A program made the position numbers and the translations under genes. A stretch of 14,787 nucleotides of DNA from Clostridia bacterium (GTDB taxonomy: Bacteria > Bacillota_A > Clostridia > Christensenellales > CAG-138): contig JAFZJT010000225.1 of the NCBI GenBank assembly GCA_017553815.1, forward strand, positions 1 through 14,787. The letters run 5' to 3'. Below, one piece after another: positions 2,011-6,076 of the stretch (the first letter of the stretch is position 1; every line of letters begins with the position of its first letter). The notes beneath the pieces are model-generated. The model made no database searches. It had not been told where the DNA came from and saw only the letters and a program-made list of their open reading frames with translations.

Positions 2011-2961
2011 TTATCGAATGAGCTTTCTTGCCGCGCGCAGTTTTGCGCTGCGCGATCTTGGGTTGGCTTCAAGCTCCGTATCCGCCGCAGTGAGCGGTTT
2101 GTTTGTGATGATCTCGATCTCCCTTTCCTTGCCGCAGGTGCATATAGGTGCGCTTGGGGGGCAGGTGCAGGGATCCTGAAGGGTTTTGAAAACTCGTTTG
2201 ACGATGCGATCCTCGAGAGAATGGAAGGTGATGACGGCTATAACGCCGCCCGGGTTCAAAAACCGTGCCGCGTCGGTTATCGCGTTCTCAAGACCCGAGA
2301 GTTCGCCGTTGACTTCGATGCGTATTGCCTGAAAGGTTCGCTTCGCGGGATGCTGGCTTTCGCGCCTTGCCGCAGCAGGCATCGCGCGCTTTATGATCTC
2401 GCTCAGTTCGGTCGTCGTCTTGATGGGAGAGGCTTGTCTTTCTCTTTCTATCGCGTCTGCGATGCGGGAAGCGTAACGCTCCTCCCCATAATACTTTATT
2501 ATATCATACAGACGCGACTTTGGGTAGGTGTTTACGACGTCAAATGCACTTATATTTTGGCTCCTGTCCATTCTCATGTCGAGCTCGGCTTCGTTCATGT
2601 AGGAAAAGCCGCGGCTCGCGTCGTCGAGCTGATGGGAGCTGACGCCGAGATCGAGCATTATGCCGTCCGCGCCGCTGACGCCGTAGGGGGCGAGCAGAGC
2701 GCGCATATCGAAAAAATTACTGTGTATAGCAGTAAATTTCGAGTCTGAACCTAATATTCTGCCAGCCTCTGCGATAGCGTCGTCATCGCGGTCGATGCCG
2801 AACAGCCTGCTTCCTTCCGGAAGAAGTGAGAGTATGCCCGCGCTGTGACCGCCGCCGCCGAGGGTGCCGTCCACAAAAACGCCGCCTCGCTCGGGCTTAA
2901 GAAGCTCGAGCGACTCGCTTAGCATTATCGGAACATGATAGCCGCTCTGCATAGCGTTCAT
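2011..2961 (-). CDS. rsmH: 16S rRNA (cytosine(1402)-N4)-methyltransferase RsmH
   Basis: Methylates N4 of C1402 in 16S rRNA in the decoding centre, using S-adenosylmethionine, in the cytoplasm (formerly MraW). The 316-residue length is normal. Visible family motifs are an SAM-binding loop near the N-terminus (VDGTLGGGGHS, about 30-40), DLGVSSHQLDDASRGFSY in the middle, HPAKRTFQAIRIEVN, and a C-terminal NPRSRSAKLRAARK. The gene overlaps mraZ by 4 bases (ATGA), so translation is likely coupled. It is the standard second gene of the dcw cluster. No irregularity seen. Confidence 0.98.
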   Translation of the reverse strand: MNAMQSGYHVPIMLSESLELLKPERGGVFVDGTLGGGGHSAGILSLLPEGSRLFGIDRDDDAIAEAGRILGSDSKFTAIHSNFFDMRALLAPYGVSGADGIMLDLGVSSHQLDDASRGFSYMNEAELDMRMDRSQNISAFDVVNTYPKSRLYDIIKYYGEERYASRIADAIERERQASPIKTTTELSEIIKRAMPAAARRESQHPAKRTFQAIRIEVNGELSGLENAITDAARFLNPGGVIAVITFHSLEDRIVKRVFKTLQDPCTCPPSAPICTCGKEREIEIITNKPLTAADTELEANPRSRSAKLRAARKLIR

Positions 2962-3431
2962 TCGGTAACGGGGGAGAGCCTTTGCTCGCGCTGCTTCTCG
3001 TAAGCCGCCGCATCGCCTGAAAACTCAACGACGCCGTAGCCTTCTATGGACTGCGCGTAGCGCTCGGGATCCCAGATCTCAACATGGTCGCCCACGCCGA
3101 AAAGCATTATTTCGCCGCCGAGTCCGGCATACTTGATAAGATGCTGGGGGATCAAAAGGCGGTCGCTCTTGTCAAGGTTGACATCCTCCGCGTTGGAGAG
3201 GATGAATCGCTTCGCTCTGCCGAATGCACTGTCGTACATAGAAGAGCTGGCGATGCCGCCATAGGTCTTTTCAAAAACATCAAGGTTCATAAGCTGAAGA
3301 TACTTATCATCCGCCCTGTTGCTCAAACCGTACATGACGACAAGGTTTTCGGAAAGCTCGCTGCGCCAGCGGACGGGCACGGTCACTCTGCCCTTGGCGT
3401 CAACGGTATTTCGGCTGGAGCCCTTGAACAT
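2958..3431 (-). CDS. mraZ: Transcriptional regulator MraZ
   Basis: AbrB-like DNA-binding protein (157 residues) that forms ring-shaped oligomers and represses its own dcw operon in studied species. Two family half-repeats are seen: DAKGRVTVP near residues 11-19, and DKSDRLLIP in the second half, where the usual Gly-Arg is Asp-Arg. The start chosen is ATG at 3431, matching the conserved MFKGSSRN N-terminus and preceded by a strong AAAGGAGG ribosome site with a 7-base spacer. An in-frame upstream ATG at 3515 would lie upstream of the predicted transcription start and is unlikely. The C-terminal tail, with an EKQREQRLSPVTE end, is slightly longer than the commonest 143-residue form. The gene heads the leftward dcw operon and overlaps rsmH. 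Confidence 0.97.
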   Translation of the reverse strand: MFKGSSRNTVDAKGRVTVPVRWRSELSENLVVMYGLSNRADDKYLQLMNLDVFEKTYGGIASSSMYDSAFGRAKRFILSNAEDVNLDKSDRLLIPQHLIKYAGLGGEIMLFGVGDHVEIWDPERYAQSIEGYGVVEFSGDAAAYEKQREQRLSPVTE

Positions 3432-3490
3432 CTCGTGCCCTCCTTTCGCGCATAATTGGGGCTGAAACCCCATATTTACTATCCTCGTGC

Positions 3491-3535
3491 CCCATTGTAT
3501 CACACTTGAACCCACTTTGCAACACTTTTTCCCAC
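3491..3535 (-). promoter_or_regulatory. Array of five MraZ-type operator boxes, 10-bp period
   Basis: Read on the minus strand, five 5-base boxes begin at 3535, 3525, 3515, 3505 and 3495: GTGGG, GTGTT, GTGGG, GTGTG, ATGGG, each separated by 5 bases. MraZ is known to bind tandem TGGGN-like repeats with 5-base spacers (AAAGTG[T/G] in mollicutes), so one ring oligomer could contact successive helical turns. The array spans the -10, spacer and -35 of the mraZ promoter and extends just upstream of it. Repeat pattern and phase are read directly; binding is inferred. Confidence 0.82.
3494..3522 (-). promoter_or_regulatory. Sigma-A-type promoter of the mraZ/dcw operon
   Basis: On the minus strand, TTGCAA (3517-3522) is followed after exactly 17 bases by TACAAT (3494-3499). 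Transcription would start near 3486-3487, leaving a leader of about 55 bases before the mraZ ATG. Spacing and hexamers fit a housekeeping promoter, and the position in front of mraZ supports it. Both hexamers overlap the MraZ-type boxes, so repressor binding would block polymerase directly. Confidence 0.75.
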
Positions 3536-3683: not shown

Positions 3684-4301
3684 ATGAAGCTGATACTCGC
3701 AAGCGCGTCGCAAAGGCGGCGGGAGTTGCTCGAAATGTGTGGCTACGACTTTGAGATAGAGGTCTCAAGGTTGGATGAGCATATCGCCGAAAAGGATCCG
3801 GAGCGCTTTGTTTCAAAGCTTGCCGAAGCGAAGGCGGAGGAGGTCTTTGCGCGCCTCGCTTCATGGGAAGCGCAGGAGGGCGGCGCTTCTTCGGGCGATG
3901 ATATCGCCGTGCTCGGTTCTGACACTATAGTATACCATAACGGAAGCATAATTGGCAAGCCCAGCGATGAAAAAGATGCGTTTCGCATCCTTTCGGAGCT
4001 TTCGGGCAAAACGCACGAGGTCTACACCGGCGTTGCGGTCATAACGAGTAAAAAGCGCCTTGTTGAATGCGACATAACGCGCGTCACCTTCGAGAAGCTC
4101 GGAGATGATGAGATCGAAAAATACATTGCATCGGGCGAACCTATGGATAAGGCCGGTGCCTACGGCATTCAGGGGTCATTCGGCATGTTTGTTCAAAAGG
4201 TCGAGGGCAATTATTTCACCGTGATCGGACTCCCGCTTCCAAGGGCATACAGAATGCTCAAAAGCGTTGGCGTGCTCCCAAAAGACTTTCGCCCGATCTG
4301 A
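3684..4301 (+). CDS. maf: Maf-family nucleoside triphosphate pyrophosphatase
   Basis: Maf proteins hydrolyse dTTP, UTP and modified nucleotides to monophosphates (house-cleaning). In Bacillus subtilis Maf overproduction blocks septum formation. The 205-residue protein shows the family pattern: ILASASQRRRELL at the N-terminus (nucleotide binding), VLGSDTIV with the catalytic Asp, IIGKPSDEKDAF, LSGKTHEVYTGV, and the late GEPMDKAGAYGIQG motif. Length is typical, apart from a short insertion (about residues 60-73, EEGGASSGD-like region) before LGSDT. The start ATG has GGAG 11 bases upstream. It is the first rightward gene after the divergent mraZ junction, and the MreB-like gene follows after 74 bases. 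In Firmicutes maf is often next to mreBCD, so this pair may be a reduced version of that neighbourhood. Confidence 0.95.
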   Translation: MKLILASASQRRRELLEMCGYDFEIEVSRLDEHIAEKDPERFVSKLAEAKAEEVFARLASWEAQEGGASSGDDIAVLGSDTIVYHNGSIIGKPSDEKDAFRILSELSGKTHEVYTGVAVITSKKRLVECDITRVTFEKLGDDEIEKYIASGEPMDKAGAYGIQGSFGMFVQKVEGNYFTVIGLPLPRAYRMLKSVGVLPKDFRPI

Positions 4302-4375: not shown

Positions 4376-5407
4376 ATGTTTACTTCTTGCATGGGAGCCG
4401 ATCTCGGCTCAAGGAATACGAGGCTCGCGCTGAGGGACGGCTGTTTTGTCGAGCCGACGCTCGTTTCTATGGCGGCTTGCGAACGATCGGTGCGCTGTGC
4501 AGGTGCCGAGGCCGAATTTTCGGAGTATGGCAGGGTCGCGCCGATAAAAAACGGCTGCTGCGTGAACGCGAAGCTGCTCGCCGCGATGCTGTCGGAGCAG
4601 TGTAAAAAACACGGCGGAAGAAGGGGTTCACCGCGAAATACCGAGCTGTATCTCGCGCTTTCAAAAGCGACGCCATATCATAGGCTGCGCGTTTTTGAAA
4701 AAGCAGCGGAGGCGGCGGGCTTTCGCGGCATGCGCGTGCTTTCGCGCCCGCTTATGGGCTTGCTCGGCGCGGGCGAGGACCCGCTCTCAAGCAAGGTGCG
4801 CATGATCGTGGATATCGGCGCGCAGACCGTGAACTGCGCAGCGATAGGCTCGGGAGGAATCCTCTTTGAGTGCTCCGAGAGCTTTGGAAGCGAGCTTGCG
4901 GAGCGGGCAATACAGAACTATTTTGCCTCGGCGCACAGGGTACGGATAGGTTCTCGCGTGGCGGAGCTGATGAAGCTGAATCTTGATAGGCTTGGCTTCA
5001 CCGTGGACGGACGATCTCTTGACGACGGCCTGCCGCGCGCCGTAAACGCGGATGCGGACGCGATTCGCGCCGCCGCGCTCGGCGGGATAGGATGCATCGT
5101 TTCCTTCGCGGCGGATATGATAAGGCTTCTTCCGCCCGAAGCCTGCTCCGATCTTGCGGATACAGGCATAATGCTGATCGGTGGGGGCGCGAAAATGTTT
5201 GGCCTTTCCGAGCTTTTTGAATCTGCGCTTGGGATAAAGGCGCAGGTCGCCGAAAACGCCGAGACCGCCGCCGCGGACGGCATGAGAAGGTATCTTTTTC
5301 TCGAAAAGGAGCATAGAAGCGCGCTTATGGATACCTGCGTGCAGCTTCTGCCTAACCAAAGTCCCTCGCTCATCGAATCGGAAAACGCGATGATAGATCG
5401 GCGCTGA
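4376..5407 (+). CDS. Divergent MreB-like actin-fold protein with altered nucleotide-site motifs
   Basis: This 343-residue protein aligns along its length with MreB. The phosphate-1 loop is ADLGSRNT (8-15, MreB DLGTANT). PIKNG (56-60) matches the MreB P-x-K-DG element. VDIGAQTV (145-152) matches the phosphate-2 loop DIGGGTT, and IGSRVAELMK (191-200) matches the IGERTAExIK segment. LIGGGAKMFGL (267-277) is the adenosine motif and VAENAETAAADG (291-302) matches VAEDPLDCVAxG. MreB normally builds membrane-bound filaments that guide lateral wall synthesis. Here the IEEP motif that holds the catalytic Glu reads LSRP (122-125), and the second phosphate loop loses its glycines, so ATP hydrolysis is probably weak or lost (inference). 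No mreC or mreD follows. The start is ATG at 4376 with CGGAGG 6 bases upstream; a GTG at 4358 is inside the hairpin and unlikely. A remote alternative is another actin-like family (FtsA/PilM), but the MreB-specific segments argue against it. Confidence 0.8.
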   Translation: MFTSCMGADLGSRNTRLALRDGCFVEPTLVSMAACERSVRCAGAEAEFSEYGRVAPIKNGCCVNAKLLAAMLSEQCKKHGGRRGSPRNTELYLALSKATPYHRLRVFEKAAEAAGFRGMRVLSRPLMGLLGAGEDPLSSKVRMIVDIGAQTVNCAAIGSGGILFECSESFGSELAERAIQNYFASAHRVRIGSRVAELMKLNLDRLGFTVDGRSLDDGLPRAVNADADAIRAAALGGIGCIVSFAADMIRLLPPEACSDLADTGIMLIGGGAKMFGLSELFESALGIKAQVAENAETAAADGMRRYLFLEKEHRSALMDTCVQLLPNQSPSLIESENAMIDRR

Positions 5408-5502: not shown

Positions 5503-5578
5503 AAACTCAAGATCATTGCGGTCAAACGGGAAGGTCGGGCAGCTCCGCCCAAAATACAAAAGCATCGGAGATACTAAA

Positions 5579-6076
5579 ATGGCAGTCAGAAACATATTCA
5601 AGGACGACGCAAGCTGTTTGTACAAGACGGCGAGACCCGTCGAAAAATTCGATAAAAAGCTGCACACTCTGCTCGACGACATGGCGGAGACCATGTACGC
5701 CGCCGAGGGCGTAGGGCTTGCCGCACCCCAGGTCGGCATACTGCGCCGCATATTCGTAATGGACTGCGGCGACGGTCTCATCGAGGCGATAAACCCGGAG
5801 ATCGTTGAAACCTCAGGCGAGCAGGGCGGTATGGAGGGCTGTTTATCATTCCCGAACCGCTCGGGCTACGTCGTGCGCCCCGATAGGGTCGTGTTCCGCG
5901 CGCTCAACCGTGAGGGCGAGCTGATGGAGTACGAATGCGAGGGCTTGCATGCGCGCTGCGTAATGCATGAGACCGACCATCTCGACGGGCATGTTTACCT
6001 CGAGAAGGTGACCGAGCCGCCCGAGGGCTTCACCGAGGAAGCGGGCGAGGACTACGAAGAGGACGAGGAAGAATGA
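5579..6076 (+). CDS. def: Peptide deformylase
   Basis: Metalloenzyme that removes the formyl group from the N-terminal methionine of new proteins. All three catalytic motifs are present: GVGLAAPQ (44-51), EGCLS (86-90, metal-binding Cys88) and HETDH (130-134, metal-binding His130 and His134 with catalytic Glu131). Length is 165 residues, with an acidic tail (about 156-165, EDYEEDEEE-like) beyond the core. ATG at 5579 is chosen because GGAG sits 8 bases upstream and MAVRNIF fits the usual N-terminus. An upstream in-frame ATG at 5516 would add 21 residues unlike the family. It is first in the long rightward operon and overlaps fmt by 4 bases (ATGA). The Fmt/Def pair works in one cycle, formylating initiator tRNA and then deformylating the product. 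Confidence 0.97.
   Translation: MAVRNIFKDDASCLYKTARPVEKFDKKLHTLLDDMAETMYAAEGVGLAAPQVGILRRIFVMDCGDGLIEAINPEIVETSGEQGGMEGCLSFPNRSGYVVRPDRVVFRALNREGELMEYECEGLHARCVMHETDHLDGHVYLEKVTEPPEGFTEEAGEDYEEDEEE

Follow-up and report, generated by a model that had tools for sequence, protein, structure and literature searches.

A second, fast-evolving MreB with a degenerate ATP-hydrolysis motif in a family of uncultured Clostridia

An MreB-type gene of an uncultured clostridial genome encodes a protein in which ATP hydrolysis, as judged from its residues, is probably lost or low, and most related genomes that have such a gene also hold an MreB with the catalytic glutamate. The gene lies at positions 4376 to 5407 of the window, which is the whole 14,787-nucleotide stretch of DNA analysed here. 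The preferred reading, with a probability of about 0.55, is that the protein is an MreB with slow or absent ATP hydrolysis, which would modulate filaments of MreB1 or form long-lived filaments. MreB1 denotes the paralogue that often adjoins phosphoglucomutase and tatD genes, and MreB2 the paralogue linked to mreCD. The purpose of ATP hydrolysis by MreB is still debated. A conserved, probably hydrolysis-dead natural MreB beside an active one provides a ready-made comparison for the role of hydrolysis, and the comparison set also offers the motif-keeping MreB2 of sister genomes and a motif-poor MreB found at the mreBCD locus of genome G037.

Residue correspondences were taken from sequence alignment to the Caulobacter crescentus MreB of known structure (CcMreB, 4czf). 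The features of the window to which the text refers are as follows.

2011..3515, minus strand: mraZ and rsmH (mraW), Pfam PF02381 and PF01795, the divergent start of the division/cell wall cluster
3684..4301, plus strand: maf, Pfam PF02545, the upstream neighbour, which adjoins mreBCD in sister genomes
4376..5407, plus strand: degenerate MreB paralogue, an open reading frame of 343 amino acids
4400..4420, plus strand: phosphate-1 loop DLGSRNT, residues 9-15, its Asp aligned with CcMreB D16
4613..4639, plus strand: GGRRGSPRN, residues 80-88, aligned with the hydrophobic-loop site of MreB1 (e.g. GTKLFFKPR)
4739..4750, plus strand: LSRP, residues 122-125, replacing I[DE]EP, with Arg124 aligned with the catalytic E140 of CcMreB
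4811..4834, plus strand: phosphate-2 loop DIGAQTVN, residues 146-153, replacing DIGGGTT[D/E], from codons and alignment
4964..4975, plus strand: E197 to K200, corresponding to CcMreB E213 and K216, invariant in 23/23 rows
5180..5191, plus strand: GGGA, residues 269-272, GGG kept in 23/23 rows
5516..6076, plus strand: def (peptide deformylase), by Pfam, the downstream neighbour, followed by fmt, rsmB and rlmN

The reading frame starts with an ATG at 4376, just downstream of a ribosome-binding-like site (cggagg), and the start position is shared with close relatives. The initial annotation, which described an MreB-type protein with a degenerate ATPase site, is borne out: Arg124 stands at E140, an MreB fold is predicted and nucleotide-site residues are kept. 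The codons confirm its LSRP at residues 122-125 and its DIGAQTV loop, and the alignment gives Arg and no acid at the catalytic position. Its further proposal, of capping, scaffolding or regulating MreB or FtsA filaments, stays a hypothesis. In the phosphate-2 loop, Gln150, Thr151 and Asn153 correspond to G166, T167 and E169. E213 and K216 presumably have a nucleotide-binding role, as taken from actin and MreB structures. In filaments of CcMreB, the attacking water is reported to be held by E140 and T167 (PMC4051119), and 95.8 per cent of non-Spiroplasma MreBs are reported to carry the motif E...T-X-[D/E] (PMC9597168). Two of the three motif residues are lost in the window protein (R124, T151, N153), Thr151 being the sole one kept. 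The residue pattern of the degenerate rows fits nucleotide binding and possible end-to-end stacking, without the usual hydrolysis.

Profile comparisons place the protein in the MreB family. Pfam MreB_Mbl (PF06723) is matched with 133.2 bits, the cut-off being 27, while the curated NCBIfam MreB models are not reached (PRK13927, 128.8 versus 293 bits; TIGR00904, 90.6 versus 365.75). The predicted structure has the MreB fold, with MreB as its best structural match, and Spiroplasma MreB3 is a poorer match to the window protein than CcMreB or TmMreB. Other actin-like identities were considered and rejected. Scores are far under the cut-offs for FtsA (TIGR01174, 14.1 versus 175.85 bits), PilM (TIGR01175, 18.7 versus 133) and MamK (NF040964, 18.8 versus 400), and the Pfam PilM profile PF11104 is not reached either (22.3 versus 27). 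A separate FtsA is present in G003 and G004, the two genomes scanned for it, and no PilM exceeded the cut-off in the eight related genomes scanned.

A search for MreB across a genome family of 103 species found a match in 102, and 146 MreB pieces from these 102 genomes and the window were tabulated with their surroundings. The E140 column has Glu in 116 pieces and is incompletely covered in five. The remaining 25 pieces, from 24 genomes and the window, have Ala, Arg, Gly, Ser or, once, Asn. As the loss recurs in 24 of the 103 family genomes, the degenerate MreB is more than a product of chance or a sequencing fault. The full E...T-X-[D/E] motif is found in 105 of the 116 Glu-keeping rows; the last acid is Asn in the other 11. 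These belong to genomes G038-G048 (e.g. L122:6789-7871 and L128:3012-4091), whose sole detected MreB keeps Glu140 and Thr167 and has Asn for the acidic E169 (loop DIGAGTSN or DIGAGTAN), so that the hydrolysis motif is lost in part.

A Glu-keeping MreB is also present in 21 of the 24 genomes with a degenerate one, so the window protein does not represent the only MreB of its lineage. In the other three (G004, G024 and G090) its absence is most simply an assembly gap, because the surroundings of MreB1 are missing there too: in G004 and G024 tatD has no match and phosphoglucomutase has weak matches of 26-28 per cent, and the phosphoglucomutase gene of G090 lies close to a contig end, with its start 309 bases away. 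G001 and G004 are the genomes nearest to the window in a quick tree, and the canonical mreB of G001 is split across two contig ends.

An initial protein search with the window protein gave at least 13 matches, 11 of those listed being close family, and scanning genome contigs added 10 loci, six of them close. Searched against a large protein collection, a profile of 22 degenerate rows found at least 19 proteins with E values no higher than 1e-20. Family size is a lower bound, since both protein searches scored the 7998 candidates sharing most words. Of the 19 listed, two are named, both as "rod shape-determining protein"; automated readings of shape genes accordingly take the degenerate protein for an ordinary MreB. 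The same profile gave 12 matches above 380 bits among 396 genomes drawn from the order, in many of which five first-look candidates were scored; all 12 are inside the 103-species family, and the next match has 246 bits. The degenerate MreB therefore looks like a lineage-restricted branch. Two other motif-poor MreB-like proteins, P0014 (IESP, DIGASKSE) and P0022 (VEQP, DIGSTTTS), come from distant sources, and motif loss thus seems recurrent. Within the open literature searched, a degenerate MreB in these Clostridia has not been described.

Conservation was counted in 23 full-length degenerate rows, which leave aside G037 and a fragment from G085. Kept in all 23 are D16, G18, G147, G164, A212, E213, K216 and G243, as well as D284, G289, the three Gly of GGGA and G327. 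E140, G166, T19, C110, A132 and G188 are among the residues kept in none, and four new residues are fixed in all 23: Ser at 19, Ala at 110, Phe at 132 and Ser at 188. Position 162 is Asp in 18 rows and Asn in five. The phosphate-1 loop of most family MreB1 rows (e.g. L047:9770-10807) is itself DLGTSS- rather than DLGTANT. E280 is Glu or Asp in all 23 degenerate rows. If an offset count is right, it would correspond to E271/E275/E285 of Spiroplasma, the acid whose change to Arg is reported to stop polymerisation (PMC12337190). V118, an inter-protofilament contact, and E119 are not conserved, which leaves pairing with an MreB partner open to question.

The hydrophobic loop is described as a membrane anchor of Gram-positive MreB (PMC4051119). 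It often has an FF pair in MreB1; in the window protein (GGRRGSPRN) and its subclade the pair is absent and basic residues take its place, and position 99 in this region is Arg in 21 of the 23 rows. The change is not clade-specific, as most MreB2 rows are without FF and many other degenerate rows keep Leu. Degenerate N-termini are shorter than those of the ten MreB1 and MreB2 rows compared.

All 25 degenerate genes have open reading frames, that of G085 reaching a contig end. NG86 dN/dS, computed on stop-to-stop frames with some dS values above 1 (saturated), is 0.14-0.43 in 10 degenerate pairs versus 0.017-0.049 in five MreB1 pairs; neighbouring genes are mostly at 0.06-0.42, with one maf pair at 0.74 that rests on a dS of 0.02. 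Thus, the degenerate gene is constrained like several of its neighbours and is evolving far faster than MreB1. MreB1 is nearly invariant across G079-G089, whose degenerate copies differ widely.

These rates, about ten times those of MreB1, together with a clade stem of 1.26-1.71 changes per column, are what would be expected of a relaxed, slowly dying paralogue that has no specific new role. In many genomes of the family only one MreB was found, so that these bacteria can apparently do without a second, whatever its kind. Such an end is nevertheless quite improbable: the frames are open, dN/dS is well under 1, the nucleotide-site residues (D16, E213, K216 and GGG) are invariant and new invariant residues are shared, and the gene is retained across a clade whose members go down to 29 per cent identity to the window protein. 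On these grounds the sequences indicate that the gene is not simply decaying. Alternatively, the ATPase might have been rebuilt rather than lost, with Glu, Gln or Asp at position 166 (Gln150 here) and Thr or Ser at 167 positioning the water that E140 would otherwise place. All 61 MreB1 and MreB2 rows have Gly at position 166; the degenerate rows have Glu (12), Gln (5) or Asp (4) in 21 of 23, with one Lys and one Cys, and actin is reported to position water with Gln137 (PMC9597168). However, position 167, Thr in 12 rows and Ser in six, is Arg in four and Gly in one; the acid at 169 survives in one row of 23; and position 165 is Arg in 11. To our knowledge, no relocated catalytic site of this kind occurs in MreB, and a rebuilt ATPase is considered unlikely.

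The gene neighbourhood bears on the origin of the paralogue. One side of the gene is made up, by Pfam, of maf, def, fmt, rsmB, rlmN, a PP2C phosphatase, a PASTA kinase, rsgA and rpe, and the other of mraZ, rsmH, an ORF in the ftsL position and a PBP; a GNAT gene is also among those named. The ORF in the ftsL position (1530-1979, 149 amino acids) has no Pfam match. By Pfam, neither mreC nor mreD is present among the genes of the whole window, as the initial annotation had noted for the vicinity of the gene. The pairing with maf is kept in relatives: in 22 of 24 genomes the two genes are no more than about 4.5 kb apart, sharing a strand in 19 of them and lying on opposite strands in three; in G081 the distance is about 1.8 kb. 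A possible role in division had been suggested from the maf and dcw neighbours. The presence of maf is no evidence for it, since maf is also found near an ordinary mreB-mreC-mreD locus, on the opposite strand, in 14 of 18 sister genomes. In these 18 genomes an ordinary MreB piece adjoins mreC, and the 17 pieces that cover the site have Glu and D[IM]GGGTTD. Most simply, maf is an inherited neighbour of the degenerate gene.

Among the 24 genomes with a degenerate MreB, mreC was detected in 23, the exception being G082, but in only one, G037, does it lie beside the degenerate gene. At the mreC loci of 18 such genomes, among which that of G006 ends at a contig end inside mreC, mreD and PBP2 were matched in 18/18 and mreB in 0/18; control mreC loci from three sister genomes did reveal mreB. 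Clusters of mreC-mreD-PBP2 without mreB are seen at L044:9113-13029, where HAD and tgt genes follow, and at similar loci of the degenerate clade. In G022, G024, G025 and G026, mreC and the MreB matches are on separate contigs. The MreB of G037 (L202:1809-2801) has Ser at D16, Asn at E140 and a loop DIGATKTT, scores higher as an MreB than the window protein (212.6 bits), and is still in the ordinary place, maf-mreB-mreC-mreD-PBP2. It may be either an intermediate or an independent loss.

In the quick tree of 86 rows the degenerate clade has support of 100 and is joined by G037 with 80; the whole groups with MreB2 (96), apart from MreB1. In a careful tree, built from 35 rows, the degenerate rows fall inside MreB2, with 100/99 for the combined group, on long branches. 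Together with the maf linkage, these free trees make it likely that the degenerate gene is a former mreCD-linked MreB2 that left the mreCD locus. AU tests leave standing a grouping with MreB1 (p 0.16 and 0.075) and one with CcMreB (p 0.056), as would be expected if the source of the gene was MreB1, or else an MreB that is older or was transferred. Against such a source are the free trees, the maf linkage and G037, and we regard it as improbable. Alternatively, the protein may be a non-polymerising, nucleotide-sensing adaptor for the adjoining division cluster, somewhat like FtsA or PilM. Its diverged inter-protofilament region would agree with this, and rsmH lies within about 4.5 kb of the gene in 18 of 24 genomes. 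However, the FtsA, PilM and MamK profile scores, the FtsA proper of G003 and G004 and the lack of PilM in the genomes scanned speak against an adaptor. The neighbourhood may have been inherited with maf, and no rsmH was seen nearby in G022, G037, G082, G084, G087 and G089 (the last on a contig of 3 kb). Proximity to rsmH is no proof of function, and an adaptor role appears rather unlikely.

The preferred reading, a non-hydrolysing or slowly hydrolysing MreB, can be outlined as follows. The ATP-hydrolysis motif of a former MreB2 would have been lost and the gene would have moved away from mreCD, with MreB1 retaining the catalytic Glu. The degenerate MreB may still bind ATP or ADP and hydrolyse little or none. 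As a slow or locked subunit, it could co-assemble with, cap or stabilise MreB1 filaments; alternatively, it might assemble by itself into long-lived filaments. Its attachment to the membrane may be altered as well. Precedents for several steps come from Spiroplasma. SpeMreB3, with Asp, Lys and Ser at the motif, is reported to polymerise with nucleotide and to release Pi slowly (PMC9597168). The E134A mutant of ScMreB5 is reported to be ATPase-deficient and yet to form filaments, whose lateral contacts and binding to liposomes are weaker (PMC9195046). In AMPPNP or ADP, SpeMreB1 is reported to lower the amount of SpeMreB5 filament (PMC12337190); it has high ATPase activity and is a precedent for crosstalk only.

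Overall, the sequences suggest a helping or regulatory role in the cytoskeleton of walled bacteria for the second, fast-evolving MreB of some uncultured gut Clostridia. A broader and doubtful proposal, with the odds well against it, is a two-part elongation cytoskeleton in walled Clostridia, in which a highly conserved, active MreB1 would be joined by a non-hydrolysing, co-assembling or capping MreB that tethers elongation filaments to the division cluster. The degenerate MreB might then correspond, just as tentatively, to an actin-related protein in bacteria that have a wall. Eukaryotic Arps have diverged from actin as paralogues; they retain its fold, do not undergo ordinary ATP cycling and act as regulators. 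The likeness is conceptual, as the window protein is bacterial and belongs to the MreB lineage.

In comparison with the canonical MreB, Mbl and MreBH of Bacillota, the fold, length, phosphate-1 Asp, adenosine-side residues and Pfam family are shared. Unlike them, the degenerate protein has lost the catalytic Glu and its acidic partner, lacks FF at the hydrophobic loop, falls well under the NCBIfam cut-offs and has no adjoining mreCD, although adjacency to mreC and mreD is not universal even for Mbl and MreBH. The nearest known case is Spiroplasma MreB3 (SpeMreB3). Its reported signature has Asp, Lys and Ser/Thr at E140, T167 and E169 (PMC9597168), whereas the degenerate Clostridia rows have Arg (Ala, Gly or Ser in relatives), mostly Thr or Ser, and a non-acidic residue at these sites. 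The Asp and Lys of this signature are accordingly absent from the window protein (R124, T151). Spiroplasma is without a cell wall, whereas the related Clostridia mostly keep mreC.
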